Source: Zanthoxylum bungeanum
Taxonomy: Eukaryota; Streptophyta; Magnoliopsida; Sapindales; Rutaceae
Direction: 5' to 3'
Length of the DNA: 64,000 nucleotides
Assembly: GCA_019454045.1 (NCBI GenBank)
Contig: SKCR01007563.1
Coordinates: 1-64,000 of the forward strand
Positions within the stretch are counted from its first letter, which is position 1; the number at the start of each line of letters is the position of its first letter. Both the position numbers and the translations under genes were made by a program. Shown piece after piece: positions 2,111-56,302 of this stretch. The notes beneath the pieces are model-generated. The model was not told the DNA's origin, searched no databases, and saw only the letters and a program-made list of their open reading frames with translations.

Positions 2111-2239
2111 TAGGAGGAAAGTAGGACTCGATGAAAATCAGAGTGATACCGTTCCAGACACCGATCCCTTAACGGAACACGAATAGTTCATCAGGGATGA
2201 ATCTATACCACAATCTTTTAATACACAAGAACCGCGTAG

Positions 2240-3480: not shown

Positions 3481-3701
3481 ATACAGCACAGGCTAAAGAA
3501 TTACGGTCTCATCAACGATCCAAGTATGTACTTCGACGGTTTTATCTGATTCGTGAGATCATACATCGTGGCGATGTGATGATCGAATGAATCACATCGG
3601 ATGATAACCTTGTAAATCCACTGCCGAAAGCGATATCTCGGCATAAACATGAGTGATCCGTACATAGTTCAGGTGTTAGACACTTGAGTGATTTGCTATA
3701 G

Positions 3702-3715
3702 GCCAAGTGTGAGAT
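3702..3715 (+). other. copia-1 polypurine tract
   Basis: GCCAAGTGTGAGAT lies directly upstream of the 3' LTR. The equivalent tract in copia-2 (opposite strand, 35477-35490) reads GCCAAGTGGGAGAT. It primes plus-strand synthesis in the family. Confidence 0.8.
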
Positions 3716-6291: not shown

Positions 6292-8003
6292 TGACCGGCG
6301 TAAACACACACGTATAACGCAAGCGCACGTATCGTTCAAGTAGTATAAAAATATCGACCCCACGAGGACTTAATATCTAATCTATTAATTTTATGAGGTC
6401 AAATGATTACTAGTATCTAACAGGTTGTTTGATTGATTTGAAATGGTGAAGATTCTAAATTAAAAACAAGTAAATAAAAATTGTTCGAAAGTAGGTTTTA
6501 AGAAAATTCAATATTAAAAACTATCTAGGGTTGTGATTTCTTCCAATATCATTTTAAAGATGAAGTGGTTATCTTAAAGTTGGGTAATATATTGATTTAT
6601 TAACCTGGAACACAAATTATGTGTAAGCCTCTGTCGATGGTCAGACACAAATATCCAGTTTAACCCAATTGAACCATATGTCTATGTCAACCAAATTATC
6701 TGGATTCATTAAGTTTAAGTTCCAATTATGGCTACCCCCGCCCGACAGCTATATGTCTATCCTATAAGGAAATCTATTAAAGGGTTATCTATCCTCAAGG
6801 AAGATCGTGAACTATTGAGTCTAGGGTCTTAAACTTAAAATCCCTATGTCTAGTTCATTTTAAGTTTCCCAGTTCAATTTTATTAATGGCCAGTTAATGA
6901 AAAAGCATTAAGATTAAAACTCAATAAATAAATCTTTATATTAACCAAGCTATAATCTAACCCCTTATAAACCGGTGATATTGGATTTCATCACAACCAC
7001 AGATAACTGGCTTAGTTACGACACATATTTAAGGGTAGTAAAAAGTTAAATAAAATAAAAGACAAAGTAAAATACTGAAAATTGAATTGCTGAAAAGTAA
7101 ATTGCTGAAAGTAAATTGCTGAAAATTAAATTACTGAAAAGTAAATTGTTGAAAGTAAATTGCTGAAAGTAAATTACTGAAAAGTAAAAACTAAAAATTA
7201 AAGAAAGAAAAGTATTGTGCGTAAAAGTAAACTGCGGAAAGTAAAAACTGAAAATAAAGAAAAGAAAGTGCGAAAGCGGAAATTAATAATAATGAAAGAT
7301 ATAAATAAACAAACAAGATACAATCTTCTTAGTATTCTTAAGGAATTTCTTAGAAGAAAATATGAATTTTACAAATGAAATGGCTTGGTATTTATAGGCA
7401 AAATTTTGCCTCCATCAAATCATCCCCCAAATCAATTATTAATTGCTCCACTAATTGCTCCACCAAATCCATTATTAATTTCTCCACTAATCTCTTATCA
7501 TGTTTGGTGATGATTTGATAATTTTTATTATTTTTTTATTTTTTTATTTTTTTGCTTTGAAAATGATTGAAAGTGACTTTAATAATTACACACAACACAC
7601 TTATGGATGGTTCATCCATTTCGGGCATGATATCTTCAAAATTCGAAATTATTTTCTCTTTAAAAGTTGTATATTTTTGAGTCTTTAATCAAGAACTTGA
7701 ATAAGCTCATTCCGATATCGAGAGTAAAAGGTTATGCCCACAATACGACAGATGCGAAAATAAGAATTTCCAAAACTGCACTTCGTTAAAACGCCCTTTC
7801 AAGTTTCCAATCTCCAAAATTAATATGTCAAGTCCAATTTTTGCCCTTATTTGACCCATATTTCATCCTAAATGATTTCATTAAGTCCCAATATTATTTT
7901 ATCTGCAAAATAAACTAAAATATATCAACGTTCATCAAACCGAGAAACTAAACAAATATTAAGTAAAAGGGGCGGTAAATATTGATATATTTTCCGCTCA
8001 TCA
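6292..8003 (-). repeat. Element A 3' LTR (1712 bp)
   Basis: It pairs with 13753-15472 over its whole length with scattered small indels. It holds a run of short repeats around AAGTAAATTGCTGAA (about 7080-7200), repeats of ATTGCTCCACTA type (about 7440-7490), and on the minus strand a TATAAATA box at 7389-7396 followed at once by the 14-bp palindrome GGCAAAATTTTGCC (7397-7410). Confidence 0.95.
7389..7396 (-). promoter_or_regulatory. TATA box of element A LTR
   Basis: The minus strand reads CCTATAAATA. The same TATAAATA is found at the matching place in the right LTR of A (14829-14836), in both LTRs of B (18950-18957 and 29366-29373) and in E (52806-52813, + strand). Conservation across three otherwise diverged LTRs supports a core promoter role. 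Confidence 0.75.
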
Positions 8004-8015
8004 CACCCCCAACCT
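8004..8015 (-). other. Element A polypurine tract
   Basis: The minus strand reads AGGTTGGGGGTG immediately before the 3' LTR. Element B has AGGTTTGGGGGTG at the same place. Confidence 0.85.
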
Positions 8016-9325
8016 AACATTTTGCTAGTCCTTGAGCAAAAAAATAAAATAAAATACAAGAAATAATTAAAATTAAACTAAGCCACTTTCGTAGGGATCA
8101 CGGTTGCATTTAGCATATGCAACAAGCCTTTAAACCCCTAGGTGTCCCTAGTGGACGAGTTATAGTCTCGTGAGGGCTTACAGCAATGATACCCACAAAC
8201 ATTTTGTAAAAGTAAAAAGGTAGTGTAACTAATGCACACAAAAGCAAAAAGACAAGCGAAAAGAGAATAAAGAAGTTAGTGACTAATTAGGTGAAACTTT
8301 TACTCCAAGTTACTAGTTGTTTTGTTTCTTTTTAAATTACTGAATAAGTAAATTCTCCGATTATATTTACCATTCTCCATATACACAGTCGACAAAATAT
8401 TAATCAACCCATTTTTGCCCACAACAGTCATAAGTGCAGTTGATAAGAGAGTAATATTTTTGTCCTAAAGTTTTATCAGATTTCACACCTTTTTGCAGCA
8501 ATGGAATAATTTTCCGGATTTTTTAGATTTTTTTTTAATTTTTTTTTCTCTATTTTTTTTATATACAATATCTTCCATCTATGTAACGAGTGTTGGGTCG
8601 GTGGCTCCCAAACCAGTTGGCTTTAGGGCACCAGGTGTTAAGACACCCCTAAGGACTTAATTACTCAGACTTCAGATATTTTTGCAGCATCTTTGATCCA
8701 TGTAGCGAGCTTTGGGCCAGTGACTCCCAAACCAGTTGGTTTTAGGGTACTAGGTGTTAAAACACCCTTACAGACTTAATAACTCATATCTCAGATTTAT
8801 TTATTTTTACTCCATTGCTTTTTGAGATGCTTCCTCCAATTAAAATAGAGCACTAAATATTACAAACTTTTCAATTTTAACTCATGTTCGTATGTTACTA
8901 TTCATGTTGATAATACCTGTCAACTGAGCATATGAAAATCCATTTTAGTCCGTTTTATGGAGAATTTACAAATTAAATAATTTAAAAGGAGATAAACAAA
9001 AATTAACTTATTTTCGAAATAGGCTTGAGATACGTCTCAGGAGTGGAAACTCCTTACTCAGCTATCTCTTACCAATTTCACATTTTTAGTCAAAATAAAA
9101 ACAAAAACGCAAAATATTTTTGTAATTTTTGAAAATTTTTCAATTTTTTTGTATTTTTCGAAATATTTTGGACTAAAAATAAAAATAACACACAAACTAA
9201 AAATAAGGTACTGATCAACTAATTCCCTCCCCAAAACCTAAATGAGACATTGTCCCCAATGTTTTAAACAGTAGAAGAAGAGTTTAGAAGATAATATCTG
9301 GTTAGCTGAAATTCTATACGAAAAG
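8016..9325 (-). other. Element A 3' untranslated region with tandem duplication
   Basis: Non-coding, between the LOG gene and the PPT, largely alignable to 19481-21125 in B. It contains a two-copy repeat of about 119 bp starting at 8581 and 8700, each copy with the phrase CTCCCAAACCAGTTGG. Long T runs occur at about 8520-8560 and 9120-9180. Nothing coding was seen. Confidence 0.8.
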
Positions 9326-9979
9326 TTAAAGGTTAAGACCCAGATTAACACGATGCCTCTTACCACGATCGTCCTCGGACCAATTTATCTTTGAAAGGAT
9401 AGGGTCAACTTGTGGTTCATAGGCTAAGAGTTGGTCTATTAGATCTGGAGTAGTTTTGGCAGTAAAGAAGAGTTCTTTTAAAGGTTTTGACACGAACCCA
9501 TTTCTCCGGGCATCATCAAGAACCACACAAATAAAATCAGAAAATCCATCAACGTTAAACAACCCAATTGCTTTCTGGTGTATGTTCAGGTTCGCCCAAG
9601 ATAGTACTATAAAAATTTCCTCCAATGTGCCCAAGCCACCTGGCAAAGCGATAAAAGCATCAGCACGGTTAATCATTTATACCAATAGTTTAGACATACC
9701 TGGCACGATTAGTTCCTCTCCGTTTGATGGTTCAATAAGATTTGCCTCTGCCAAGGGTTTTGGGATGATTCCCAAAACGTGAGTACCTCCTTCTTGTACG
9801 GCTTTTGAAATGATCCCCATAAGTCCAAGATTGCCTCCGCCATATACTAAGTGCATATTCCTTGCAGCTAAGACTCGACCCAATTCCTGTGCTGCTTCTA
9901 CGTATTGTGGCTTAACACCAACACTACTACCGCAAAACACACATATGTTTTCAACTCGTCTTCTTGAAGTGGCTTCCAT
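9326..9979 (-). pseudogene. LOG-like: LOG-type cytokinin riboside 5'-monophosphate phosphoribohydrolase, retrotransposon-borne, copy A, nonsense-mutated
   Basis: The frame from ATG at 9979 to TAA at 9326-9328 spans 218 codons, the usual LOG length (about 210-225 aa), with no intron, while plant LOG genes normally have several. Visible motifs are ICVFCGSS (residues 12-19), YGGGNLGLMG (46-55) and PGGLGTLEE (113-121), the last being the family nucleotide-binding and catalytic signature. LOG enzymes release active cytokinin base from its riboside monophosphate in the cytosol. Codon 101 is TAA where copy B has GAA, which splits the frame. The region of the family's M-x-x-R-K-x-x-M motif reads MSKLLV then stop, so its Arg and Lys are absent. 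The gene lies on the sense strand between a cysteine-cluster ORF and the PPT, where other Athila-type elements may carry an env-like gene. Captured host cDNA is the likely origin (inference). Confidence 0.9.
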
Positions 9980-10236
9980 TTTTTTTATGTATTTCTTTCT
10001 CAACTCTGGCTGCCTTCAAAAGTGCAATGACAGGCTGAATTTATAGTACCTGAAAAGGGTGAGTAAAAATAGCAGTAGTACCTGACAAATGATAATTATT
10101 AGTTAGAAGTAAAATAAATCGTGATAGTAAAAAAGGTCTGGATCCTGTCGGAGAAAATAAAAGAAAACAATTACAATTATTAGGAAAAGACAAAGAGATA
10201 TAATATGTACAAGAAAAGAAGTGGCTTGATTGACGT

Positions 10237-10785
10237 CTATGCGTCAGGGAAAAGCTTCCCATCCAATTTTCTTATAAACTGGCAAACAGGGTATTTTTGA
10301 GTCAGATTCCCAAGACTTTATTGTTGTCTTTCTTTTTGGAATTGTGTATGTAATTTGTGAATGGCTATGTGAACATATCCACTGGGATGCGTCTCAAGAG
10401 TTGAAGATATATCATCTAAAGACTCCTTACTCAAGCCATCCCTAATGAATTTAATTTTTTCTTCGCGATTATCAGACACCATTCCTAAAGAACGACAACG
10501 AGTATTGCAATTCCAGCGTGCACATTTGTAACAAACACCCATTTGCTTAGCTCTACGTTTCTTTGCATAGGTGTTTTTTCCAAAACCAGGCAGATGTGAA
10601 ATAAAAGAGTCAGAAGACTCACCTGCCAATCAGACTCGTGCTTCAATTACCCAATGAATGTCATTAGGAACACCATGGATTGTTAGTAATCTCATCCGTT
10701 CCAAGTGAGATTTGTAGACTTTCATCAGATAGTTTTGAGGGAGAGAAGGAAATTGCTTGTGAAGATTTGCGAGAACTTCTTCCAT
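10237..10785 (-). pseudogene. Unknown cysteine-cluster ORF (ORF-X), copy A, two nonsense codons
   Basis: I do not recognise this gene. The frame from ATG at 10785 to TAG at 10237-10239 spans about 182 codons. A central basic stretch (KKRRAKQMG) precedes the cluster CYKCARWNCNTRC, spacing C-x2-C-x4-C-x3-C, which looks able to bind zinc. The C-terminal half contains ETHPSGYVHIAIHKLHTQ. A nonsense codon interrupts the frame just before LAGESSD (about 10624), and a second (TAA for the TTA of copy B) follows KERQQ at 10318. It lies directly upstream of the LOG gene and downstream of the integrase end. The same ORF in the same place in B argues that it is a real gene of this lineage. Confidence 0.75.
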
Positions 10786-10852
10786 CCTGAAATGTCTAAT
10801 CTGCAAAAACTAAACACACCAATTTAAATCACACCAAATCACAATATATACA

Positions 10853-10892
10853 AAAATTGCATGGGTTGCCTCCCTGCAAGCGCTAAGTTTAC
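10853..10892 (-). promoter_or_regulatory. Conserved GGGAGGCAACCC element between pol and the extra genes (element A)
   Basis: The minus strand reads GCAGGGAGGCAACCCATGC, just after the pol end and before ORF-X. Element B has the same motif at 22633-22665 with a flanking GCGCTA. As I recall, similar GGGAGGCAACCC blocks occur after pol in other Athila-type elements. A role in expressing the downstream ORFs is conceivable but not shown. Confidence 0.55.
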
Positions 10893-10922
10893 AGTCGTCA
10901 GCCATACTTGACTTCTCGAACG

Positions 10923-11777
10923 TTAAGCTGGATCTGAAAGTGTAACACTTTCTTTTTGTCGCTCAAATAATTCTCCCCAGTAGTGATTGACACGATTGTT
11001 TTTAACCTTGAAAGTTTTGTTGGAGTCAGGATCATGTATCTCAACGGCTCTATCTGGTAAAACTTTGGTGATCACAAATGGACCTGACCATCGTGATTTT
11101 GGCTTCCATGGGAAGAATTTCCCCCTTGATTTGTTTAACAGTACCTTCTGCCCTGGTTCCATTTGTATGCGCACTAACTTCTCATTATGTCTTTTCCTTG
11201 CCTTTTCCTTGTACAATTTGGCATCCTCAAAAGGCTGTATGTGAAATTCCTCCAATTCGTTGAGCTGGCGGAACTTTTTCTTTTATGTTGCTTGTAGTGC
11301 AAGAATAGGCTTCTTCAGTACGCAGTGCGCTTTATCTTCAGGCTCCACAGGTAATTGACATTCTTTAAGTTTGTCAGTAGAACTTTGTCTTTCATCAGAG
11401 TTCTGAACGGTACTATGTATCACATCAAGTCTGAAACATTCCTCATTCTTTTCATCATCTGGGAAATTCATGGCTTTGAAAACATTGAATGTTACTTCTT
11501 GGTCTTGTACCTTCATGGTTAGTTCTCCTTTTTTTACATCAATAATGGTTCGACCTGTAGCCAAGAATGGTCTCCCGAGGATGATTGGCACGTCTGCGTC
11601 TTCCTCCATATCAAGGACAATAAAATTTGCTAGGAAAATGAATTTGTCAACCTTGACCAACACATCCTCAACTACGCCTTTTGGAAATACGAGCGTTCTA
11701 TCAGCAAGTTGTAGAGAGACTGAGGTGGGCATTGTTTCTCCAATCTGTAATTTCCTGAAAATAGAAAAAGGCATCAA
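10923..11777 (-). pseudogene. Element A protease end fused to integrase C-terminus (pol internal deletion)
   Basis: The 11777-11283 frame starts in protease: MMPFSIFRKLQIGETMPTSV, then a segment with VPIILGRPFLATG. It continues through MKVQDQEVTFNVFKAMNF to TDKLKE and jumps directly to LPVEPEDKAH, which belongs to the integrase C-terminal part ([10 protein letters not shown] in B). A stop at 11283-11285 then precedes an integrase tail frame (11255-10923) with [10 protein letters not shown] and VNHYWGE. In B the same two points lie about 2.6 kb apart, with RT, RNase H and the integrase core between them. The deletion junction is in frame. Confidence 0.85.
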
Positions 11778-11817
11778 GTTAACACTCGCACCTAAATCAC
11801 ACAGAGCCTTACCAAAG

Positions 11818-12602
11818 TTATGTTCTCCTATGACGCAAGGAACAGTGACTGCCAGGATCTTTCAACTTTGGGGGAAGTTTCCTCTGAATGATAGCGCTAC
11901 ATTCTTCTGATAATGCTACTGTGTCGTAATCTCCCAATATCCACTTTTGTGAAAGAATGTCTTTCATGAATTTGGCATAGCTGGGCATTTGTTCCAACGC
12001 TTCTGCAAATGGAATGTTGATATGCAGCTTTTTGAAGATTTCCAGGAACCAAGAAAACTGCTTGTCCAATTTGTTCTTCTGAAGATGTTGAGGAAAAGGT
12101 GGAGGTGGAATGATCTGTTCTTTTTCCTCCATCTGTTGCTTTGTTTCTTTTGGAACTTCCTCAACAGCTGTTTTGGCTCAAACATCTTTGTTGATTTCAG
12201 TACCGTTTTTTAACATGATGGCATGACATTGCTCCTTCCCCATGTTCCTTGGATTTGGCTCTGTGTTGCTAGGAAGGGTACCTGGCATTCTGTAACTCTG
12301 AGCATTTTCAGTTGTCCAATTTGATTCTCTAGTGCTTTAATAGAAGCAGATTGACTTTGAATTAATGCTGCTTGGGATTGAAACATAGCATCATATCTTG
12401 CTGCTTGAGATTGAAACATAGTATCATATCTTGCTGCTTGAGAGTCGTGTTTTGCTTCTATCTTTTTCAAGTGGATCAACACTTCTGTTATTCCTGGTTC
12501 ATTTGCCTGTTCCTGGCTTTTGTTCTGTTGTTGGAATGCGGGTGGTGGATTGTTCATTTCCCTGAATTGTTGCTCCATGCGAAATTGGGATGATTCCTCC
12601 AC
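11818..12602 (-). pseudogene. Element A gag C-terminal / protease N-terminal region, frameshifted
   Basis: Two frames correspond to the gag tail. In 12602-12210, the repeated FQSQAARYDAMFQSQAALIQ and IKALENQIGQL form a Gln-rich coiled-coil-like stretch. In 12132-11818, a frame with PFPQHLQKNKLDKQF and EALEQMPSYAKFMKDILS leads to the protease approach, IIQRKLPPKLKDPGS. Both match B at 26375-26812. Frameshifts at about 12200 and 11810 separate them. An NTYNPGW-type linker is only partly kept here. Confidence 0.8.
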
Positions 12603-12774
12603 CCTGGGTTGTAGGTGTTGGAATATGGATTGTTCCCATGTCTGTTGAAATTGTTGACATAATTCACCGTCTCTTTATGTTGGTTGAAAGATTATGACTC
12701 ATGTGCTCCTCCAAATGGTGAACTTGTGGATCCACCATTAACTTTTATGTTAAGAGTTTCCAGATTTTTTCAAA

Positions 12775-13623
12775 TCACATCAGCTTGGAATTCAGTGATG
12801 TGTTGGCTCCAACTTCATAAATTCCTGCAATTCTTTGGATCATGCTCCTTTCTGTTGGCCATAAAGAATTGTTGTTGGCCATTTCTTCAATTAGGTCCCA
12901 GGCTTCATCTTCTCCTTTTGCCATTAAAGCTCCTCCAGCAGCAGCATTGATTGTGGTTCTCATTATTCCAGAAAGTCCATTATAGAATGTTTGGACCTGA
13001 AGCCATTTTGGAATTTCATGGTGAGGACATTTCCGGAGTAAATCTTTGAATCTTTCCCAAGCTTCGCAGAGGGATTTTGAATCTTGTTGTATAAAGGACG
13101 TGATGTCATTCCTTTGCTTTCCGGTTCTGGCTGGTGGAAAATACTTTGCAAGGAATTTGGTGGCTAAAGTGTTCCAAGTTGTGATGGAACCTGCTGGTAG
13201 TGAATGTAGCCAAGCTTTTGCTCTGTCCTTCAAGGAATATGGAAAAACTCGAAGTCTCATTGCTTCTTCTGATGCTCTGTTGTAGTTGAAAGTGCCGCAA
13301 ACTTCCAAGAAGTTACTGATGTGGGCATTAGGATCTTCAGTTGCATTCCCCCCGAACTGAACTGAATGTTGAATAATCTGAATGCATGTTTTGATGTCAC
13401 ATGTATTTGCTGGTAAGGGAGGAAGTACAATACAGGAAATGAGTCTGTCAACCACCGGAATGGTTCTGTCTCGAATGGGAATCAGTGGTGCAACCTCCAA
13501 CGGTTCAGGTTCAATGTTGACTAAAGCTTCTTGGCCTTCTCGTCTTTCTCTTCTCAACTGTCTGATGGTTCTTTCAATTTCCGGGTCAAGCGGTCGGAGT
13601 TCAAAGCTTCCGGTTCCTCTCAT
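12775..13623 (-). pseudogene. Element A gag (Athila-type capsid region), long open stretch
   Basis: Open from ATG at 13623 for about 282 codons to 12775. It has the N-terminal RPLDPEIERTIRQLRRERRE and the retrotransposon gag core with FPYSLKDRAKAWLHSLPAGS, FLAKYFPPARTGK and FYNGLSGIMRTTINAAAGGA, then a frameshifted tail. The start is chosen because it aligns with the B gag start at 27937. It forms the particle around the RNA. It is almost intact over the core but is separated from its C-terminal part by frameshifts. Confidence 0.88.
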
Positions 13624-13729
13624 GAAGTTTCTGAGAACCTGAAACACAAGAAAACATAAAAATAAGTAAAAAGAAATTAGATACAAGTAACGTATCTAAC
13701 CCCTAAACTATTGTAAAAGATAAATAAGT

Positions 13730-13746
13730 CCCCGGCAACAGCGCCA
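13730..13746 (-). other. Element A primer binding site
   Basis: The minus strand reads TGGCGCTGTTGCCGGGG, six bases inside the 5' LTR. B has TGGCGCCGTTGCCGGGG. This primer site is characteristic of Athila/Calypso-type elements, reported to be complementary to a tRNA-Asp 3' end. A differs from B by one base. Confidence 0.85.
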
Positions 13747-13752
13747 AAAACT

Positions 13753-15472
13753 TGACCGGCGTAAACACACATGTATAACGCAAGCGCACATCGTTCAAGT
13801 AGTATAAAAATATCGATCCCACGAGGACTTAATATCTAATCATTAATTTTATGAGGTCAAATGATTACTAGTATCTACAGGTTGTTTGATTCTTTGAAAT
13901 GGTGACGATTCTAAATTTAAAAACAAGTAAATAAAATTGTTCGAAAGTAGGTTTTAAAAAATTCAATATTAAAAACTATCTAGGGTTGTGATTTCTTCCA
14001 ATATCATTTAAAGATGAAGTGGTTATCTTAAAGTTGGGTAATATATTGATTTATTAACCTGGAACACAAAATATGTGTAAGCCTCTGTCGATGGTCAGAC
14101 ACAAATATCCAGTTTAACCCAATTGAACCATATGTCTATGTCAACCAAATTATCTGGATTCATTAAGCTTAAGTTCCAATTATGGCTACCCCCGCCCGAC
14201 AGGTATATGTCTATCCTGTAAGGAAATCTATTAAAGGGTTATCTATCCTCAAGGAAGATCATGGACTATTGAGTCTAGGGTCTTAAACTTAAAATCCCTA
14301 TGTCTAGTTCATTTTAAGTTTCCTAGTTCAATTTTATTAATGGCCAGTTAATGAAGAAGCATTAAGATTAAGACTCAATAAATAAATCTTATATTAATAA
14401 CCAAGCTATAATCTAACCCCTTATAAACCGGTGATATTGGATTTCACACAACCACAGATAACTGGCTTAGTTACGACACATATTTACGGGTAGTAAAAAT
14501 TTAAATAAAATAAAAGACATAAAGTAAAATACTGAAAATTGAATTGCTGAAAAGTAAATGCTGAAAGTCAATTGCTGAAAATTAAATTGCTGAAAAGTAA
14601 ATTGCTGAAAAGTAAATTACTGAAAAGTAAAAACTAAAAATTAAAGAAAGAAAAGTATTGTGCGTAAAAGTAAACTGCGGAAAGTAAAAACTGAAAAGTA
14701 AAGAAAAAAAGTGCGAAAGAGGAAATTAATTACTGAAAGCTATAAATAAACAACAAGATACAATCTTCTTAGTATTCTTAAGGAATTCCTTAGAAGAAAG
14801 TATGAATTTTACAAATGAAATGGCTTGGTATTTATAGGCAAATTTTGCCTCCATCAAATCATCCACCAAATCAATTATTAATTGCTCCACTAATTGCTTC
14901 ACTAATTGCTCCACTAATTGCTCCACCAATCCATTATTAATTGCTCCACTAATCTCTTATCATGTTTGGTGATGATTTGATAATTTTTATTATTTATTTA
15001 TTAATTTATTTTTTTGCTTTGAAAATGATTGAAAGTGACTTTAATAATTACACACAACACACTTCTGGATGGTTCATCCATTTCGGGCATGATATCTTCA
15101 GAATTAGAAATTATTTTCTCTTTCAAAGTTGTATATTTTTGTGTCTTCTTTAATGTGGAACTTGAATAAGCTCATTCCGATATCGGAGTAACAAGTTACG
15201 CCCAAAATACGACAGATGCGCAAAATTGGAATTTCGAAAACTGCACTTCGTTAAAACGCCCTTTCAAGTTTCCAATCTCCAAAATTAATATGTCAAGTCC
15301 AATTTTTGCCCTTATTTGACCCATATTTCGTCCTAAATGATTTCATTAAGTCCCAATATTATTTTATCTGCAAAATAAACTAAAACATATCAAAACGTTC
15401 ATCAAACCAGAGAAACTAAACAAAATATTAAGTAAAAGGGGCGGTAAATATTGATATATTTTCCACTCATCA
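13753..15472 (-). repeat. Element A 5' LTR (1720 bp)
   Basis: Partner of 6292-8003 with the same ends (TGACCGGCG...CTCATCA) and the target duplication TATAC immediately outside. TATAAATA lies on the minus strand at 14829-14836. The palindrome after it has lost one base compared with the left LTR. Confidence 0.95.
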
Positions 15473-16604
15473 TATACCCAAATCATACATATCCAATCAT
15501 CTCATACATATACAAATACGTAGTCATATGCTTATGCACATGCTTATACATACTCATACATTTACATACATGAATATATATTAGTAGCGATTCATACACT
15601 TCCATACATACATACATATACATAAACATTAAGCTGATTTCATGTCGCACTTTCTATCATATCAATAACGTTGATCCATACCTGTGATAGTCGATTATCC
15701 TAACCATATGTGACCTCGAACTTCGTCCTCAAGAATATACCTTAACTATCCTCTTTTAACATAACATGTCAATCATCTATATATATATAATCAAACACGA
15801 AATCACCAATTTAAGTTCCCATCGCATGGTTTACTTACCTGGCTTCGCGAGCACTCCAGGTCCTAGTCACTTTTGTCAAAAAAAATGGTGAAATACCATC
15901 AGAAAAATGACTTACGGAGTTCTCGACTAAACTACAATAAAATCCTAGATCTTTCTGGAACAACCAAATCAAGTCTATTTTCAATGTTTTCAGTTTCAAT
16001 AATCTTTAAACACCATCATAACATATTCCAAGCCACTAGTTCACCCAAATTCTTGGTTTACACATTTTTAGAAAATCTTCCGAAAAAGTTTCTGCAAACG
16101 CTACTGAATGGTCCTGAACCCTCCGAACCTACCCGGATTTATCCAAACATGTTTGTAATATGATAAATAAATCATATCTATCATCAAACCAAAACAAATC
16201 TTTATACGCAAAAACCTACTTTTACCAAAAACTTACATATTCTATCGGATAAATCAAACCCGTTCCGTTATCACTCGAATTCTACCAAATGCCCATATTC
16301 GATATTCTAATACTCAAACAATTCAATTTATATCAATACTCTACTCTACGAAGCTACTGCATACATCCGAACATTTAACTATAAACTTGAAATTTGCAGA
16401 TTTTTACCAAGAGGTCTTACTGATATTTCTAGGCCATATACAGACTCCAAACGATCCCATGAACATGCTAGAATCGACGAAATTCTCATCAGAGCTACTG
16501 TTTACCATGAGTCTATATTCAACCGAATCTTCTTTCCTCGTTTCACATGAAACCGAGCACAAATCAGAAAATCATCACCTTCATCTTGTAGTGAATCTAC
16601 TAGT
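15473..16604 (-). other. Non-coding, LTR-like sequence (possible Tekay-type LTR, minus strand)
   Basis: No supported coding region. On the minus strand it reads like the long AT-rich LTR of a chromovirus, including an exon-donor-like CGCGAAGCCAGGTAAGTAAA at about 15828-15847 and AAACGAGGAAAGAAGATTCG at about 16530-16550. It is the continuation of 5639-6291. Ends were not found, and where it meets C at about 16604 is only approximate. Confidence 0.35.
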
Positions 16605-16866
16605 ACAAGGTCTTTATCCTTTTCTGGTATAACTGCATGTGGTACAAGGCCTTTATTCTTTTTCTTATCCAGTAATGCTAGCTATTCGAACCTCTACGAG
16701 GCCCATTCCTGCTCAAGGAATCCTGCCTCTACTAGTACCTGCATTGATTATATTTTTATTTCCACTGGTAACACTGCCTCCATCCCGTACTTCTGAAATT
16801 GGACTCCATTGTCCGTCAGTATGTGATGTGGCATTCAGTATCGACATACTATGTTATGGGCTATAA
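16605..16866 (-). pseudogene. Element C integrase remnant with internal deletion
   Basis: On the minus strand HHILTDNGVQFQ (second catalytic Asp region) is followed directly by KYGMEAVLPVEI, which in relatives lies roughly a hundred residues further on. EAGFLEQEWAS and LALLDKK, with shifts, follow. The core between the second Asp and the catalytic Glu is therefore gone. Similarity fades near 16605, where element C is truncated. Confidence 0.65.
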
Positions 16867-17649
16867 ACTTGGCCATCTACCATACATCACCCCCCAACGG
16901 ATTTTTTTTACCTCTTGATAGCGGGCTTCATGCGGAAACATCTTCTTACTGAGGTAGTAGACTGCATGTTCCACCCATGTCTCATCTGCTTGTACCATCA
17001 TCGCCCTCAGCGCTTCGGGTTCTATGGCCGAATACGACACCAAGGGTTTTCCCAGCCTTGGGGGTTTCAAGATGGGCGGTTTAACGAAGTACTCTTTGAT
17101 TTTGTCAAAAGTTTATTGACATTACCTATTCCACTTCGTAGGCTGGTTTTCCTCAATAGCTTGACTATGGGCTCGCATACCAATGTTAGCTTGGTAATTG
17201 CCTTGATTTTTTAAGGGTCTCTGATATACTAGATGTTCCCGAGAAAAGCTCTGACTTTCTTTTCTGTTTTCGGTGCGGGCATCTCAATAATTGTCTTGAT
17301 CTTTTCAGTGTCTACTTCTATCTGCTTCTTGACTTCTTCCCTAACCTTTTTTGCCCACTCTGTCCTCATTCTTTGGAGCTTCTGTTTTACTGGTCTCATG
17401 TTCGATAAGTTGGTATCAGTGCTGGGCAATACCCCTGTCTATTCCCGACATGTCTTCATAGGAACCAGGCGAATACTTTTGCATATTTTATTAATAGTCT
17501 CTCTACTTCTTTCTGCTCATCAGTAGTAACCTCACTTGCAATTAAAATTTCCTGTGGGTTTTCACATGCACCAAGAATAAATGCATTTGTCTTGTTGAGT
17601 TAATGTAAAGATGCTATGTCATGCATGTTATGAGGTAGACTAACAGAAA
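16861..17649 (-). pseudogene. Element C RT-RNase H remnant with the RT palm deleted in frame
   Basis: The frame 17429-17229 starts as a Tat RT N-terminus (RPVKQKLQRMRTEWAKKVRE, EVKKQ). It then passes without a break into the RT C-terminal stretch IEVDTEKIKTIIEMPAPKTE, KKVRAFLGNI. The whole palm, including the YxDD box, is missing between them. Upstream in another frame is the MSGID-type RT start. After a stop, RNase H-like MKPPRLGKPLVSY and EHAVYYLSKKMFPHEARYQE follow at 17070-16861. No polymerase activity is possible. Confidence 0.8.
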
Positions 17650-18535
17650 TGACCGGCGTAATCACACCGTTAAACGCAAGCGCACGTATCGTTCAAGTAG
17701 TATAAAAAATATTGATCCCACGAGGACTTATTACCTATTCTATAATTTTATGAGGTTAAGTGAAAACTGATATCTAACAATTGTTTTATTAAAATGACGA
17801 TGATTCTAAATTTAAAACAAGTAAAAGAATTTAGAGTAGATTAATGAGAATTAAAACTATCTAGGGTTGTGAATTCTTCCAATATTAATTAAAAGATGAA
17901 GTAGTTAAATTATAGTTGGGTAAAATATTGAATTATTAATCTGGAACACTAAATTATGTAAAAGCCTCTTCCGATGGTCATTTACAAATACCTAGAATAA
18001 TCAAATTGAACCATATGTCTATGTCAATTAAATTACCTAGATTCATTAAGATTAAATTTCAATTATTGATTACCCCCGCCCAACATGTATATTCCTATCC
18101 TGTAAGGAAATCTATTAAAGGTTTATCTATCCTTAAAGAAGATCGTGGTTTGTTGAGTATAAGGTCTTTAAACTTAAAGTCTCTATGTCTAGTTCATTTT
18201 AAGTTTAACTAATCAATTTTATTAATGGCCAGTTAATAAAAAGGCATTAAGATTATGACTCAACAAATAACTCTTTAAATTACCCAAACTATATCTAACC
18301 CTTTTAAAAACAGTGATATTAGATTTATCACAACCCTAATATTTAACTTAGTTACAATACATAGTTAAAGCTGATAAAAACTTAAAAGACATAAAATGAA
18401 ATTGCTGAAAAGTAATTGTAGAATAATATGAATTGCAATAAAAAAATGAAATGCTAAGATAAAGGAAATACTTCTACTATATACTATTTAGATATCTCCC
18501 ATAAAATAATAATAATATACTTGTGATATTTTAAA

Positions 18536-18710
18536 CCAACCGTCCGGAATGGCGGTATCCTCATTAAGTCAAATTCAAATATACCAGCCATAAGGCGGAA
18601 CAGAAATATGAATTTAAACCAACCGACCGACCTAGAATGGCGGTATCATCATTAAGTCAGGTTTAACCAGTTTAAATTGAATAACCACCGACCTAGAATG
18701 GCGGTATCTT
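18536..18710 (-). repeat. CCGACC-GGCGGTATC boxes in element B LTR
   Basis: At least three copies of ACCG(A/T)CC...AATGGCGGTATC are spaced roughly 60-85 bp apart, upstream of the TATA box in transcription orientation. The right LTR of B repeats them at about 28955-29125. The E LTR has five related boxes (53061-53245). They look like U3 enhancer-type repeats. Confidence 0.7.
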
Positions 18711-19135
18711 TTTATTAATTCAGGTTTTAAATAGTTTATATATTATATTTTAAGGGAGATTAATCTAAATAGCAAAAGTAAAAGAATTACCTTATTACCT
18801 CAGCATAGAGACGTTACCCCCTCATGGATGGATAGAATTACTACTACAAAGCGTAAATAACTGAATAAAAGAAGAAAATATGAAGAACTCTCAATTTATT
18901 TATAAGGATTTCAGAGGAAGAGGTACATTTGAAACTAAAAATCGAAATCTATTTATAGGCAAAAAAATCTAATTTTTTATTATTATTTTTCTGATTTTTA
19001 TTACTTTATTATTTTATTATTTTATTATTATTTTTTTGGATCGCTGAATTTTCGACACGTGGCATGGTGTGCTAAAAATGACGGCTCGTTGAATCTTTGA
19101 CATGTGGCATGGTGGTGCAATTACCAAAATACCCT

Positions 19136-19300
19136 CGGTGTCGGGACGCCCAAAATTACCAAAATACCCTTTTCGTCAAATTTCACATTTTGCTCCAAAT
19201 CACCTCCAGAATGTCTTGAAACTTTTTTTCGTGTCGGGATGTCCAAAATTACCAAAATACCGTGTCGGGATGCCCAAATTACCAAATACCCTTTTGCCAA
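19136..19300. repeat. Short tandem repeats (GTCGGGA-CCAAAATTACC) in element B LTR
   Basis: The unit GTCGGGATGCCCAAAATTAC recurs with small changes, interleaved with copies of TTTCACA...CTCCAAATCACCTCCAGAAT. The right LTR has the same set at about 29540-29765. Short open frames over this area are created by the repeat and are not genes. Confidence 0.7.
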
Positions 19301-19467
19301 TTTCGCCAAATTTCACACAGTTTGGCTCCAAATCACCTCCAGAATATCCTGAAACTTTATTTATCTACAAATAACACAAAACACATCAAAATATTCACAA
19401 AACTCAAGAAACTATACAAATATTAAGTTAAATGAGTGGGAAATAATGATACATTTATCACTCATCA

Positions 19468-19480
19468 CACCCCCAAACCT
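19468..19480 (-). other. Element B polypurine tract
   Basis: The minus strand reads AGGTTTGGGGGTG, immediately before the 3' LTR, one base longer than in A. Confidence 0.85.
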
Positions 19481-21125
19481 AACATTTTGCTAGTCCTCGA
19501 GCAAAATAAAATAACATAATAAAATTTTAACTAAGCCACTTTCGTAGGGATCACGATTGCATTTAGCATATGCAACAAGCCTTTAAACCCTAGGTGTCCC
19601 TAGTGGACGAGTTGTAGTCTCGTGAAGGTTTACAGCAATGATACCCACAAACATTTTACAAAAGTAAAAAGGTAGTGAAACTAATGCACACAAAAGCAAA
19701 AAGACAAGCGGAAAGAGAATAAAGATGTTAGTGACTAATCAGGTGAAATTTCTAATCCAAGTTACTAGATGTTTTGTTTCATTCTAAATTACTGAATAAG
19801 TAAATTCTCCGATTATTTTTACCATTCTTCATATATACAGCCAACAAAATATTAAACAACTCATTTTTGCCCACAACGGTCATAAGTGCAGTTGATAAGA
19901 GAGTAATATTTTTGTTCTAAAGTTTTATCAGAATTCACATCTTTTTATAGTAATGGAATAAATTTTCTAATTTTTCTGATTTTTTTCTTTGATTTTTTTT
20001 TCTATTTTTTATTTATATACAATATCTTCCATCTATGTAGCGAGCTTTAGGTCGGTGACTCCCAAACCAGTTGGCTTTAGGGCATCAGGTGTTAAGACAC
20101 CTCTAAGGACTTAATTACTCAGACTTCAGATATATATACATATATATAAATTTTTCATCATTTTTGATCCATGTAACGAGCTTTGGGCCAATGACTCCCA
20201 AACCAGTTGGTTTTAGGGCACTAGTATTAAAATACCCTTACAGACTTAATAACTCGGATCTCAGATTTTTTTATTTTTTTTTTATTCCATCACTATTTTT
20301 TTTAGATGTTCCTCCAAATGAACTAGAGTACTGGATATTACAAACTTTTCAATTTTAGCTCATGTCTGTATGTTACCATGTATGTTGATAATATCTGCTA
20401 ACTAAGTATATGAAGATTCATTTTAGTCAGTTTAATGGAGAATTTACAGATTAAATAATTCAAAAGTGAATAAACAAAAATTAACTTGTTTTGAATTAGG
20501 TTTGAAATACGTCTCAGGAGTGGAAATTCCTTACACAGCTATTTCTTACCAATTTCATCTTTTTAGTCACATAACAACCACATATTTCTACTAGTCATAA
20601 AACTATAATTTACATTTTTTTTTCAAAGGCTCTCGCTGACGAAGGATTGTTCACAACTAGGACTCCCCACTCAAGGGTTCAAGCGACCAAGTGAACGCAC
20701 CTTTTTTATACCTTATGGTACGTGCCAACGAATTTATGGTGTGTGACTAACTGTCGAATGGACTTCCCGTTGTAGATTCCCCAGAGGGAAGGTGGAGCGA
20801 GGCTCACTTAAATACCCAAGCCCCTTAGGCTCTTATCGCTTGTTGTCAGGAATAAACAACGAGTCCTCCAAACTAGTCTGTCACAACACGCTACAAGTGA
20901 ATGATTATCTAGGTGCCTCACAGCTTTTCCTTATAAAAAGGTAGTGAGTGAAGGAAGACACCAAACCATCACCTAGCTTTAAATATGCCCTTTATTTTTA
21001 TTAATTTTTTATTTTTTTTGTATTTTTTTTGAAAAATTTTGGACTAAAAATAAAAACACAATACAAACAAGATAAAAGGAGAATTAAGAAGATAATACCT
21101 GGTTAGCTGAAACTCTACAAAAAAT
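19481..21125 (-). other. Element B 3' untranslated region with tandem duplication and a 400-bp insertion
   Basis: Non-coding and alignable to 8016-9325 of A. The CTCCCAAACCAGTTGG duplication is present with starts near 20035 and 20171 (period 136). From about 20570 to 20990 there is a block absent from A. Part of that block resembles the leader of C (see the separate entry). No gene was seen. Confidence 0.78.
20570..20990. other. Insertion in B 3' UTR, partly shared with element C leader
   Basis: A interrupts the equivalent place with nothing. In this block 20625-20735 (GGCTCTCGCTGACGAAGGAT, then TTCACAACTAGGACTCCCCA and ACGTGCCAACGA) matches 43314-43425 of C (GGCTCTCATCGGCGAAGAGT, CTCACAACTAGGTCTCCCCA, ACGTGCCAACGA). 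Neither ends nor target duplications were resolved. It could be a fragment of a C-like element or a separate small repeat. Confidence 0.6.
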
Positions 21126-21774
21126 TTAAAGGTTAAGATCCAGATTAATCCGACGTCTCTTACCACGATCATCATCAGACCATTTTATCTTTGAAATGAT
21201 AGGGTCAACTTGTGGTACATAGGCTATGAGTTGGTCAAGTAGATCTGGAGCAGACCTAGCAGTAAAATTTCTTTCATAGGTTTTGACACGAACCCATTTC
21301 TCCGAGCATCATCAAGAAACACACAAAGAAAATCATAAAATCCATCAACGTTGAGCAGTCCAAGCGGTTTCTGGTGTATGTTCAGGTTCGCCCAAGATAG
21401 AACTATAAAAATTTCCTCTAATGTACCCAAGCCACCTGGCAAAGCAATAAAAGCATCAGAACGGTTAATCATTTCAACCAGTCGTTCAGACATACCTGGC
21501 ACGATCAGTTCCTCTCCGTTTGATGATCCAATAAGATTAGCCTCTGCCAAGGGTTTTGGGATGATTCCCAAAACATGACTGCCTTCTTCTTGTACGGCCT
21601 TTGAAACGATCCCCATTAGTCCAAGATTGCCTCCGCCATATATTAAATGCATATTCCTTGCTGCTAAGACTCGACCCAATTCCTGTGCTGCTTCTATGTA
21701 TTGTGGTTTAGTACCAACAGTACTACCGCAAAACACACAAATATTTCAACTCGTCTTCTTGAAGTGGCTTCCAT
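21126..21774 (-). pseudogene. LOG-like: LOG-type cytokinin riboside 5'-monophosphate phosphoribohydrolase, retrotransposon-borne, copy B, frameshifted
   Basis: The region from ATG at 21774 to TAA at 21126-21128 aligns throughout with copy A and is also intronless. The longest open part (21736-21224, 170 codons) holds YGGGNLGLMG, VLGIIPKPLAEANL, PGMSERLVEMINRSD, FIALPGGLGTLEE and LGLLNVDGFYDFLCVF. A one-base loss near 21745, in the VFCGS region, removes the N-terminus. An indel near 21270 replaces the C-terminus. Where LOG enzymes usually have M-x-x-R-K-x-x-M, this copy has M-S-E-R-L-V-E-M: the Arg is kept and the Lys is Leu. PGGxGTxxE is intact. It sits downstream of ORF-X, as in A. Confidence 0.9.
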
Positions 21775-22012
21775 TTTTTTACTATGGATGTCTTCAAAAG
21801 TGCAATGATGAGTTGAATTTTATAGTACCTGAAAAGGGTGAATAAAATAATAGCACAAGTATCTTCCGAAGGACGATTAATAGCAAAATAATAAAATAGA
21901 TCGTGATAGTCAACAAGATCTGGATCCTGTCGGAAAACAAAAAAACAAATCAATTACTAGAAAAGACAAAGAGATATAATATGTACAAGAAAAGTAACGG
22001 CTTGATTGACAT

Positions 22013-22559
22013 CTATGCGTCAGGAACAAGCTTCCCATCCAATTTTCTTATAAATTGGCAAACAGGGTCTTTTTGAGTCAGATTCCCTAGACTTAATTGT
22101 TGTCTTTCTTTTCGGAATTGTGTGTGTAATTTGTGAATGGCTATATGAACATATCCACTGGGATGCGTCTCAAGAGTCGAAGATATATCATCTAAAGACT
22201 CCTTACTCAAGCCATCCCTAATGAATTTAATCTTCTTCACGATTATCAGACACCATTCCTAAAGAACGACAACGAGTATTGCAATTCCATCGCGCACATT
22301 TGTAACAAACACCTATTTGCTTAGCTCTACGTTTCTTTGCATAGGTGCTTCTTCCAAAACCAGGTAAATAAGAACTACAAGTCTCAGAAAACTCACCTGC
22401 TAGACGGATACGTGCTTCGATTACCCAACAAATATCAGTAGGAATACCTTTGATCATTAGTAGTCTCATTCGTTCCAAGCGAGCTTTGTAAACTTTCATC
22501 AGAGATTTTTGAGGGAGAGAAGGAAATTGCTTGTGAAGACTTGCGAGAGCTTCTTCCAT
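22013..22559 (-). pseudogene. Unknown cysteine-cluster ORF (ORF-X), copy B, one frameshift
   Basis: Not recognised as a named family. From ATG at 22559 (MEEALASLHKQFPSLPQKSL) it continues through VYKARLERMRLLMIKGIP and SYLPGFGRSTYAKKRRAKQ to the cluster CYKCARWNCNTRC (C-x2-C-x4-C-x3-C). A two-base difference from copy A near 22235 shifts the frame. The second half (22240-22013) holds FIRDGLSKESLDDISSTLET, THPSGYVHIAIHKLHT and a C-terminal FIRKLDGKLVPDA. The full length would be about 182 aa. The N-terminal third looks helical and basic. Possible roles are nucleic-acid binding or an element-specific accessory protein; there is no direct evidence. Confidence 0.75.
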
Positions 22560-22632
22560 TTTGAAATTTCTTAATCTGCAAAAACTAAACACACAAAATA
22601 AAATCACACCAAATTGCAATATATACTAAATT

Positions 22633-22665
22633 TGCATGGGTTGCCTCCCTGCTAGCGCTAAGTTT
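22633..22665 (-). promoter_or_regulatory. Conserved GGGAGGCAACCC element between pol and ORF-X (element B)
   Basis: The minus strand contains AGCAGGGAGGCAACCCATGC preceded by GCGCT, in the same position as in A. It survives although surrounding spacer bases differ. Confidence 0.55.
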
Positions 22666-22698
22666 AATGGTCGTCAGCTAGACGTGACTTTTCGAACG

Positions 22699-23849
22699 TT
22701 ATGCTGAATCTGAAAGTGTGACACTTTCTTTTTGTCGCTCCAACGGTTCTCCCCAATAGTGCTTGACACGTTGACTGTTAACTTTGAATGTGTTGTTGGT
22801 GTTGGGATCCAGTAACTCAACAGCTCCATATGGTAAAACCTGAGTGATCACAAATGGACCTGACCACCTTGATTTCAACTTTCCAGGGAAAAGTTTCAAC
22901 CTTGAATTGTATAACAACACCTGTTGCCTTGGTTTCAACTGCCTGTGCACTATTTTTAGGTCATGCCATTTCTTGGTCTTTTCCTTGTACAATTTGGCAT
23001 TCTCATAAGCTTGTAGGCGAAATTCCTCCAATTCATTGAGTTGGTAAAGTCTTTTCTTTCCTGCAGCTTGTGGATCAAAATTCAACTTCTTCAGTGCCCA
23101 GTATGCCTTGTGTTCAAGCTCAACTGGCAGATGGCATGCTTTCCCAAACACCAATCGATATGGGGACATACCAATGGGTGTCTTGTAAGCTGTACGGTAG
23201 GCCCATAATGCATCATCCAGTTTTGTAGACCAGTCCCTCCTTGTTGATCCAACGGTTCTTTCCAAGATTCTTTTGATTTCTCTGTTTGAAACTTCAACTT
23301 GGCCATTTGATTGTGGATGATAAGCTGTAGCAATCTTGTGAGTAACTCCGTATTTAAATAAAAGTGCATCAAAATACCTGTTGCAGAAATGTGAGCCACC
23401 ATCACTGATAATTGCCCGAGGTGTTCCGAATCGAGTAAAAATATTCTTTTTCATGAATTTGATCACCACTTTTGAATCATTGGATGGTAGTGCAATTTTC
23501 AAACCATTTTAACAATCTACAGCAACCAAAATGTAGAGGTTTCCGAATGATGGAACAAAGGGTCCCATGAAATCAATTCCCCATACATCAAATAACTCCA
23601 CTTCTAGAATATTTTGCAATGGTCCTTCATTTCTCCTTGAAATATTCCCATTCTCTGACATCTGTCACATTGAAGAACAAATAAATGAGCATCTTTAAAA
23701 AGAGTGGGCCAGAATAAACCTGATTGAAGGACTTTGGCTGCAGTTTTATTTCCACTGAAGTGTCCGCCGTATGGTGATGAATGACAGTGCTGCAAAACAC
23801 TGTTGACCTCTTCCTGTGGAACACATCGTCTCAGTAATTGATCACACAT
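22699..23849 (-). pseudogene. Element B integrase
   Basis: The zinc-binding domain (23849-23604) shows H..H..C..C in HCHSSPYGGHFSGNKTAAKV and [10 protein letters not shown]. After a frame break and a stop near 23510 comes an open frame of 267 codons (23502-22699). It holds [13 protein letters not shown] (second catalytic Asp), [19 protein letters not shown] (catalytic Glu), [20 protein letters not shown] and the C-terminal [13 protein letters not shown] and VKHYWGE. This matches the Ty3/gypsy GPY/F-type integrase end. The break around 23510-23610 separates the first Asp region. It is largely preserved but not translatable as one protein. Confidence 0.88.
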
Positions 23850-24044
23850 CGTTTGAATAGGTACGGCTCATCCCAAACATAATGTTTGACTTCTTTGAAG
23901 AATTTCTTCCGTTGCTGAGTTGTCCTTCTACGGCCATTTTCTATACTGTCATTTCATGCTCCATCATGTATTAACATAATCAGCATACCAAGGTTTTCCT
24001 GCTGTTTATGGTAAATAGCTGTTCATCTGGAAAAGTTCTTTTGA

Positions 24045-24391
24045 TTAATAGGTCTTTGCCACTATTTCTCCATTTTCAAGCCTTGATAGATGATCTGCCA
24101 CTTGGTTTTCTGTTCCTTTCCTGTCTCTGATCTCCACATCGAATTCTTGCAGAAGAAGTATCCAACGGATCAATCTGGGTTTGGCATCTTTCTTCGAGAT
24201 CAGGTATTTGATTGCTGAATGATCTGTGTAGACCACCACTTTGGGACCCAACAGATAAGAGCGGAATTTGTCAAAAGCGAACACAACTGCAAGTAACTCC
24301 TTTTCAGTGGTTTGTAGTTAAGTTGAGCTTCATTCAAAGTTCTGCTGGAGTAGTAAATGGTGTAGAATATCTTTGCCTTGCGTTGTCCCAA
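24045..24391 (-). pseudogene. Element B RNase H
   Basis: The frames contain [20 protein letters not shown], then the segment with [20 protein letters not shown], and [20 protein letters not shown] with DHLSRLE. This is the standard Ty3/gypsy RNase H with the Asp of YTDH. A frameshift near 24290 and the join to RT near 24395 disrupt the reading frame. Confidence 0.85.
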
Positions 24392-24399
24392 AACTGCAC

Positions 24400-25185
24400 C
24401 TACAGCAGCAAATCACTAGCATCACACATTACCTCAAATGGAAGGGTCCAGTCTGGTGCTACTATGATGGGGGCAGAGACCAGCTTCTGTTTTAAGATCT
24501 CAAAAGCTTCTTGGCATTCATTGGTGAAGTTGAAAGGTACATCTTTTTCCAGAAGATTGCAAAGAGGTTTTGCAATTTTGGAAAAATCTTTGATAAATCT
24601 CCGGTAAAATCCTGCATGTCCAAGAAAACTCCGAATTCCTTTGACTGATGTTGGTGGAGGTAGTTTTTCAATTGTCTCAATCTTTGCTTTGTCTACCTCG
24701 ATTCCCTTTTGTGAGATCCGGTGTCCAAGAACTATGCCTTCTTGCACCATAAAGTGGCATTTCTCCCAGTTGAGTATCAGGTTAGTATCTTCACATCTTT
24801 GTAATACCTGTTCAAGATTTAACAAACAATGATCAAAAGAATCTCCAAACACAGAAAAGTCATCCATGAAAACCTCCATACTCTGCTCCAGCATGTCTGA
24901 GAAGATAGCCATCATACAACGCTGAAATGTGGCTGGGGCATTACATAATCCAAATGGCATCCTGCGGAAAGCAAAAGTACCATAGGGACATGTAAATGTG
25001 GTTTTCTCTTGATCTTCTGGGGCGATGGCAATCTGATTGTATCCTGAATATCCATCCAGAAAGCAGTAGAACTCATGTCCTGCCAATTTGTCCAGCATCT
25101 GATCAATGAATGGCAGCGGAAAATGATCCTTCCTTGTGGCTTTGTTCAGCTTCCTATAGTCCATACATACTCTCCATCCAGTCAC
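24400..25185 (-). pseudogene. Element B reverse transcriptase, long open stretch
   Basis: 261 uninterrupted codons. They include WRVCMDYRKLNKATRKDHFP, FLDGYSGYNQI, FRRMPFGLCNAPATFQRCMM and the catalytic box VFMDDFSVFG (Phe-Met-Asp-Asp, typical of Athila). FLGHAGFYRRFIKDFSKIAK and APDWTLPFEVMCDASD lead into RNase H. The catalytic Asp residues are present. It is marked as a pseudogene because the polyprotein is frameshifted on both sides (near 25220 and 24395), not because of damage in this stretch. Confidence 0.9.
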
Positions 25186-25223
25186 CGTTCTTGTTGGGAT
25201 TAGCTCATTCTTTTCATTGGTAA

Positions 25224-27937: not shown

Positions 27938-28045
27938 TTAGATTATGATAACCTGAAACACATTAAAACGAAAACAATAAGTAAAAAGAAAATTAGATAC
28001 AAGTAACGTATCTAACCTTAAACTAATATAAAAAGATAAAGAAGT

Positions 28046-28062
28046 CCCCGGCAACGGCGCCA
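28046..28062 (-). other. Element B primer binding site
   Basis: The minus strand reads TGGCGCCGTTGCCGGGG, six bases from the 5' LTR end, the Athila/Calypso-type primer site (tRNA-Asp type). Confidence 0.88.
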
Positions 28063-28068
28063 AAAACT

Positions 28069-56297: not shown

Positions 56298-56302
56298 GCA
56301 TG

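Follow-up and report, generated by a model that had tools for sequence, protein, structure and literature searches.

The window analysed here, a 64,000-nucleotide stretch of the Zanthoxylum bungeanum genome (GenBank assembly GCA_019454045.1, contig SKCR01007563.1, positions 1 to 64,000 of the forward strand), contains two long terminal repeat (LTR) retrotransposons, A and B, each holding a gene region of the LOG cytokinin-activation family between its integrase (IN) and its 3' LTR. We favour, with about even confidence, the reading that A and B belong to a large Ty3/gypsy family of Tat/Athila type whose env position holds an accessory module that is under selection and probably nuclear. In its commoner form, this module would consist of an open reading frame (ORF) resembling plant-virus nucleic-acid-binding proteins (NABP-like) followed by LOG, and in the other form of an acidic ORF followed by LOG. 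The LOG protein would be made from its own RNA, with a conserved AG-TATAAATT block providing either a 3' splice site or an internal TATA promoter. It would then enter the nucleus through a basic tail, bind TOPLESS-type corepressors through an LxLxL motif, and act on or bind an AMP-like nucleotide other than the classical cytokinin precursor, helping the element in the host cell.

An amplified and constrained LOG

A and B are Tat/Athila-type Ty3/gypsy elements, and the intronless LOG frame of each lies in the sense orientation between integrase and 3' LTR, on the minus strand of the window, with the motifs YGGGNLGLMG and PGGLGTLEE. The first-pass annotation of this DNA had placed the LOG regions in exactly this position; it had also described them as coding regions, present in both elements, as they are. 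Neither window copy is functional: the frame of A (9326-9979; 217 codons, with start and stop positions taken from the sequence) has one in-frame stop, and that of B (~21126-21774; PF03641, 7.7e-34 for 21224-21745) is broken by two frameshifts, near 21745 and 21266.

The host genome (3.96 Gb in 51,709 contigs, the window being contig C7560) holds a very large number of relatives. A plastid matK piece inserted in this genome finds its best named hits among Rutaceae, in Zanthoxylum calcicola (86% over 62% of the query) and Skimmia (86% over 59%); this points to Zanthoxylum as the likely genus, with little weight because the piece is a decayed nuclear insertion. A Pfam LOG search returned 47,331 first-look candidates, 150 of which were scored, all 150 above the cut-off, and a degenerate 27-base pattern for PGG[L/F]GT[L/F]EE matched exactly at 18,366 sites (9148 + 9218), with no matches (0 + 0) for its reversed control. 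Even this number undercounts the LOG copies, since the two places with an NABP motif and no exact LOG motif that we inspected both contain a degraded or variant LOG. We then examined the first 40 places of the LOG-motif list, which follows the order of the contigs irrespective of score; every one of them contains LOG by construction. The ORF just upstream of LOG is NABP-like at 22, acidic at 14 and neither at four (one of these cut by a contig end), and at seven a LOG frame with a start codon stays open for 200 codons or more, which by extrapolation to the 18,366 sites puts open LOG copies in the low thousands.

The ratio of nonsynonymous to synonymous divergence (dN/dS) was calculated for 27 open LOG copies: those seven, 19 from the best-scoring hits, and L077, a deep lineage. 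Its median is 0.239 across 351 pairs; the 26 pairs that include L077 give 0.123 at saturated dS, and the seven copies of the 40-locus sample give 0.227. For comparison, we obtained 0.111 for IN (five copies, in a set that includes stops, skipped codon by codon) and 0.336 for the NABP-like ORF (four copies). LOG is constrained within the amplified family. One could nevertheless regard it as passive, hitchhiking cargo whose open frames merely mark young copies: both window copies are broken, several others lie in tandem arrays (L011 and L016), and 33 of the 40 copies taken in contig order, one of them truncated by a contig end, lack an open frame that reaches 200 codons, which also counts against the reading that we favour. 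We consider passive carriage very improbable, however, given a dN/dS of 0.12 between lineages with saturated silent sites, a tail conserved across distant hosts, retained catalytic residues and a constrained upstream block (see below), which together call for selection on active copies.

Catalytic residues and the nucleotide pocket

The element sequences have the hallmarks of LOG proteins, with PF03641 above cut-off and a PGGxGTxxE motif. We compared 157 element-type sequences (130 from databases and 27 from the host) with nine plant and two bacterial LOGs, taking residue roles from work on C. glutamicum LOGs (PMC4979012, PMC5379747). PGGxGT is nearly invariant among the element-type sequences, 150 keep the catalytic Arg99, 154 keep Glu122 and 148 keep both, and Gly118 and Trp129 are found in 157 and 155, respectively. 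The proposed adenine/prenyl pocket is different: Lys100 and Glu125 are lost together in 149 of the 157 and kept together in eight, the Lys100 position being Leu, Ile, Met or Gln in the 149, whereas all nine ordinary plant LOGs and both bacterial ones have the two residues. The eight that keep them, four Xanthoceras records plus P0028, P0029, P0033 and P0034, form the deepest branches of the element clade which, on this rooting, would have started with an ordinary pocket that was altered later.

The significance of this change depends on what is known for the bacterial enzyme, for which alanine substitution of the lysine that follows the catalytic Arg in CgLOGII abolished AMP hydrolysis (PMC5379747); we equate this lysine with Lys100 from its position next to the catalytic Arg. 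Since 149 of the 157 lack both Lys100 and Glu125, cytokinin production by the element LOG appears rather doubtful, and the "hormone-activating enzyme" of the first-pass annotation is not a safe description. We give a probability well below even to the reading in which the element LOG does activate cytokinin as a working enzyme, and in which the raised hormone level holds cells with elements in division or in a meristem-like state, favouring transmission. The retention of Arg99, Glu122, Trp129 and the PGGxGT motif would be expected of such an enzyme, as would a dN/dS well below 1, and several prenyl-site residues of CgLOGII can be changed without loss of AMP hydrolysis (PMC5379747). Set against this are the replacement of the lysine essential in CgLOGII, the accompanying loss of Glu125 in the same 149 sequences, and the presence of both residues in every ordinary LOG compared. 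The joint loss of these residues and the acquisition of a basic and LxLxL tail would also suit a protein that uses the LOG fold to bind nucleotides without catalysis and serves in the nucleus as a sensor, a sponge or an adaptor for corepressors. This is unlikely in our view, as both proposed catalytic residues, needless for mere binding, are kept in 148 of the 157.

A C-terminal extension with a terminal LxLxL

The C-terminus of the element LOG was examined in 157 database hits of 205-260 residues, a set that includes ordinary LOGs and differs from the one used for the pocket. There, LxLxL is the terminal motif of 124 sequences, and in 121 of them three or more of the twelve residues that precede the last four are Lys or Arg; 20 of the 27 open host copies likewise end in LxLxL. 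Five hits flagged as ordinary LOGs have neither the basic stretch nor LxLxL, two ordinary LOGs from Trapa lack a terminal LxLxL, and the combined tail occurs in none of the seven ordinary LOGs seen whole. LxLxL is one of two consensus forms of the EAR motif (PMC9956375), and the tail is predicted to provide nuclear entry and binding to TOPLESS-type corepressors.

The NABP-like partner

All five open copies of the NABP-like ORF match both PF05515 (Viral_NABP) and PF01623 (Carla_C4) at E up to 0.1, the best at 7.1e-7. Measured against the curated cut-offs, the L005 copy scores 26.8 against 23 bits and 22.7 against 20.9 bits, with a match that covers ~84 residues. A PF05515 search of the host genome gave 19,137 candidates, of which 150 were scored and all lay above cut-off (top score 40.5 bits), and the same search matched in none of 14 control genomes. 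A pattern for the cysteine motif has 7067 + 7127 exact genomic matches, with 0 + 1 for its control, and none of 79 candidates was confirmed when the profile was run against viral contigs. Relatives of this protein in citrus mandariviruses have a nuclear signal and a zinc finger, and one suppresses silencing (PMC12172455).

A LOG-motif site lies 600-1300 bases downstream at only 26 of 76 listed NABP-motif places, in a count limited to those 76 NABP places, which reach as far as contig C151, and to 99 of 100 LOG places on the list. The true pairing must be stronger, because the two apparently solitary places that we fetched, those mentioned above, hold a LOG, degraded or variant; the idea of an NABP-like ORF that travels without LOG was therefore rejected.

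A conserved block upstream of LOG

At 34 of 39 sampled loci, the word TATAAATT occurs 46 to 74 bases ahead of the nominal LOG start, with AG a few bases before it in every one of the 34 cases; the same word appears at one of the 39 in the 270 bases further upstream. In element A, alignment places TATAAATT at 10038-10045, and the corresponding TATA-like block of B, which has one extra A, is at 21817-21825 (both on the minus strand). The AG-TATAAATT block is common to LOG lineages with saturated silent sites and to both backbones, and between LOG lineages it is 78-88% identical in 20-base windows, as against 29-66% for the leader that follows. These properties fit a TATA promoter with a short leader or, alternatively, a 3' splice site. 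A splice acceptor ~100 bases further upstream was considered and rejected, its AG being absent from that place in L014, L038, L047, L050, L064 and L070 (six of 19 sequences aligned, by eye).

Origin of the element-borne LOG

A maximum-likelihood tree was built from 151 proteins: 140 element-type LOGs (10 from the host genome), nine ordinary plant LOGs and two bacterial ones. The database part of its input was 187 hits less 30 outside 205-260 residues, P0019, P0066 and 18 Reevesia near-copies. The 140 element-type LOGs form one branch (support 100/97), separate from the plant and bacterial LOGs, that takes in the host, Populus, Reevesia (Malvaceae), Diplodiscus, Xanthoceras, the asterid Paulownia and many further database records. 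At three host loci (L072-L074), LOG exons stop where the element LOG continues, as at introns. Because the element LOGs share one branch and run on where host exons end, a single, old, RNA-mediated origin is likely. A recent capture of a host LOG was rejected, as the element LOGs fall outside all nine ordinary plant LOGs; furthermore, a Dipteronia LOG piece is 62-87% identical to the leading host-exon-like matches and 38-45% to the element-like matches listed. When viral contigs were searched with the LOG profile, 26 pattern matches yielded a single weak hit (36%).

The first-pass annotation had proposed that a host LOG mRNA was captured once and then spread with the elements. It expected support from a monophyletic element-borne clade with intact members and dN/dS below 1, and it would have given way to LOGs scattered among different host LOG genes or to a genome with only two copies. 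The clade is monophyletic, seven of the 40 sampled copies keep an open frame and dN/dS is ~0.23; the element LOGs sit together and the genome has 18,366 motif sites, so that neither of the two refuting outcomes was encountered. A single, RNA-mediated event is likely, but the mRNA is unlikely to have come from a recent host gene, with the clade outside the nine plant LOGs.

A further possibility is that host genes, and not elements, encode the LOG-like proteins known from Populus, Reevesia, Paulownia and Xanthoceras, and that elements captured LOG repeatedly from this host clade. These proteins were compared as protein records, and the deepest branches (Xanthoceras, P0028, P0029, P0033 and P0034) keep the ordinary pocket. 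We nevertheless find this quite unlikely: the Reevesia proteins are many near-copies on many different long sequences, a survey places a LOG domain in elements of Populus and Citrus (PMC9289625), and the ten host-genome copies fall in one 18-row branch with eight database records (99/84).

Points that weigh against the favoured reading

Several considerations temper the selected, probably nuclear module that we favour. Expression, enzyme activity and the protein-level steps of the module are predicted from sequence, as is nuclear entry through the tail, and LxLxL is a short motif. What the pocket residues do was worked out in bacterial LOGs, in part through modelling. In plant LOGs, a 2024 study could not trace activity groups to clear residue differences (PMC11593424), which means that LOG activity cannot be read from residues alone. 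Among open copies, dN/dS reflects both selection during activity and later decay, and the decay raises the values; 19 of the 27 copies came from best-scoring hits, a few having altered ends. Given the AG in 34 of 34 cases, the upstream block could serve splicing and not transcription, and part of what is shared there could stem from recombination between elements. Finally, for the other plants the comparison of element-type LOGs covered protein records.

Element anatomy and lineage

The wider anatomy of the elements was followed in 20 loci of up to 9.9 kb (two of them shorter), taken from score ranks 9-31 of the Pfam LOG search with ranks 10, 13 and 19 omitted. Upstream of LOG and on the same strand, 13 have IN-derived sequence; the ORF next to LOG is NABP-like in 17 and acidic in three; and LTR-like sequence follows LOG in 19. 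In L022, Pfam identifies reverse transcriptase (RT), RNase H, zinc-binding IN and IN core in Ty3/gypsy order, and L012, L015, L017 and L022 all have a protease region, RT and IN in that order, the protease region having no Pfam match.

A second, archaeal-type RNase H marks the Tat/Ogre elements and a chromodomain the chromoviruses; a mark of the Athila lineage is an extra ORF between IN and the 3' LTR. The pol pieces of two loci, L022 and L023, have RT, the zinc-binding and core domains of IN, one RNase H region and no chromodomain (Pfam, E up to 0.01), and the extra ORF is present in the sampled loci. No Pfam ATHILA match was obtained for one NABP-like and one acidic ORF. The anatomy fits the Athila lineage, an assignment that is provisional, based on gene order and domain content, and to that extent a weak point of our reading.

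The second form of the element, with an acidic ORF and then LOG (L003:1-810, L018, L020 and L025), showed no gag-pol match in the stretches examined and is apparently non-autonomous; the acidic ORF of L003 has no Pfam match above cut-off. We also note that L011 (LOG at 2866-3507 and 6356-6997) and L016 hold tandem copies, with units of ~3.5-3.7 kb derived from the 3' part of the element. Each unit comprises the IN end (in L016), the NABP-like ORF, LOG and the start of the LTR, a case of satellite-like amplification.

Elements A and B in the window

Both elements lie on the minus strand. Element A extends from LTR to LTR over 6292-15472, with a 5-bp target-site duplication (TSD), TATAC, and an internal deletion. 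Its 3' LTR (6292-8003) differs from the 5' LTR with which it pairs (13753-15472) by a Kimura two-parameter (K2P) distance of 0.039. Between them lie gag (12775-13695; PF03732, 7.1e-24), a protease region, the end of integrase (10923-11366; 63% to the IN of B), the NABP-like region (10222-10785; 87% to the L005 ORF and outside the set of open copies) and LOG; no RT was found in A.

Element B spans 17650-29878 as judged by its LTR pair, and no clear TSD was seen for it. The 3' LTR (17650-19467) is at a K2P distance of 0.026 from the 5' LTR (28069-29878), just inside which is a stretch resembling a primer binding site, presumably of tRNA-Asp type. The gene order on the element strand is gag (27127-27687; PF03732, 3.6e-20), protease region, RT with the start of RNase H (24400-25236; PF00078, 5.4e-31; PF17919, 3.3e-9), IN (22699-23508; PF00665, 2e-8), extra ORF, LOG and 3' LTR. 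The extra ORF is the NABP-like region assigned by family match (~21998-22559), its frame broken near 22233; it had been passed over in the first-pass annotation in both elements, although it falls inside the stretch described there. The LTRs of A and B are clearly different, as that annotation had claimed, with a top match of 82.6% across 745 bp.

Other repeats are present in the window. On the plus strand, positions 52289-56301 hold part of a further element, in which the acidic ORF (54910-55569) is accompanied by LTR-like pieces (53303-54070 and 55533-56297); this part of the window gave no LOG match. A 2.1-kb direct repeat (33393-35477 and 41180-43267; 96% identical) is probably the LTR pair of another element and has an inverted relative at 842-4840. 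A long ORF and RT-like and IN-like matches at 46026-51068, on the plus strand, mark the remnant of a separate Ty3-like element.

Relation to known systems and implications

Citrus belongs to the Rutaceae, the same family as the host, and Steinbauerova and colleagues reportedly found in 2011 two Athila-like elements similar to LOGL4. The first-pass annotation knew of no described LOG-carrying LTR element, but such elements had already been reported. A 2022 survey of LTR elements records the YgdH (LOG) domain in consensus sequences of Citrus sinensis and C. clementina and, without a filter, of P. trichocarpa, in accord with Steinbauerova et al. 2011, which it cites (PMC9289625). The elements described here resemble those in being Ty3/gypsy elements with a LOG-family ORF. 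They add the 18,366 sites, the changed pocket, the basic and LxLxL tail, the NABP-like partner, the constrained upstream block, and a tree that reaches over rosids and an asterid.

Compared with ordinary plant LOGs (AtLOG3, PDB 2A33; At5g11950, PDB 1YDH), the likeness extends over nearly the full length (P0002 to 2A33, 2.1e-55) and includes PGGxGTxxE and the catalytic Arg and Glu, whereas the element LOG is intronless, has Lys100 and Glu125 mostly replaced and ends in a different C-terminus. The NABP-like ORF shares with carlavirus-type cysteine-rich or nucleic-acid-binding proteins (PF05515, PF01623; the mandarivirus CRP, PMC12172455) a basic stretch followed by a cysteine motif, but it sits in an LTR element with LOG after it. 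Ty3/gypsy elements of orchids, in which the domain of an m6A RNA demethylase (AlkB-like) is present (PMC9289625), have likewise acquired a nucleotide-related enzyme domain, although the enzyme and the plants are different. A literature search of partial coverage turned up no description of the altered pocket, of the tail, of the NABP-like ORF as a partner or of the upstream block. The LOG cargo itself is known, and the changed pocket, tail, virus-like partner and possible own promoter are apparently new.

A bolder and, in our estimation, improbable extension is that the two genes form a host-manipulation module, in which the virus-like nuclear RNA- or DNA-binding protein would counter silencing and the LOG with its rebuilt pocket and its nuclear, corepressor-binding tail, expressed from its own small promoter, would remove or sense another adenine nucleotide near chromatin. 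That nucleotide would perhaps be an AMP modified at N6 or one that signals in plant immunity, and the module would be the retrotransposon counterpart of a viral counter-defence locus, selected across rosids and at least one asterid.

For the family itself, the findings point to retrotransposons that have kept a captured metabolic enzyme under selection through a large amplification, often beside a virus-like gene. The change in the enzyme can be tested at the bench, and the open copies allow a direct look at expression and activity. If the element LOG acts on a nucleotide other than a cytokinin precursor, it would point to a nucleotide signal relevant to the control of transposons in plants.

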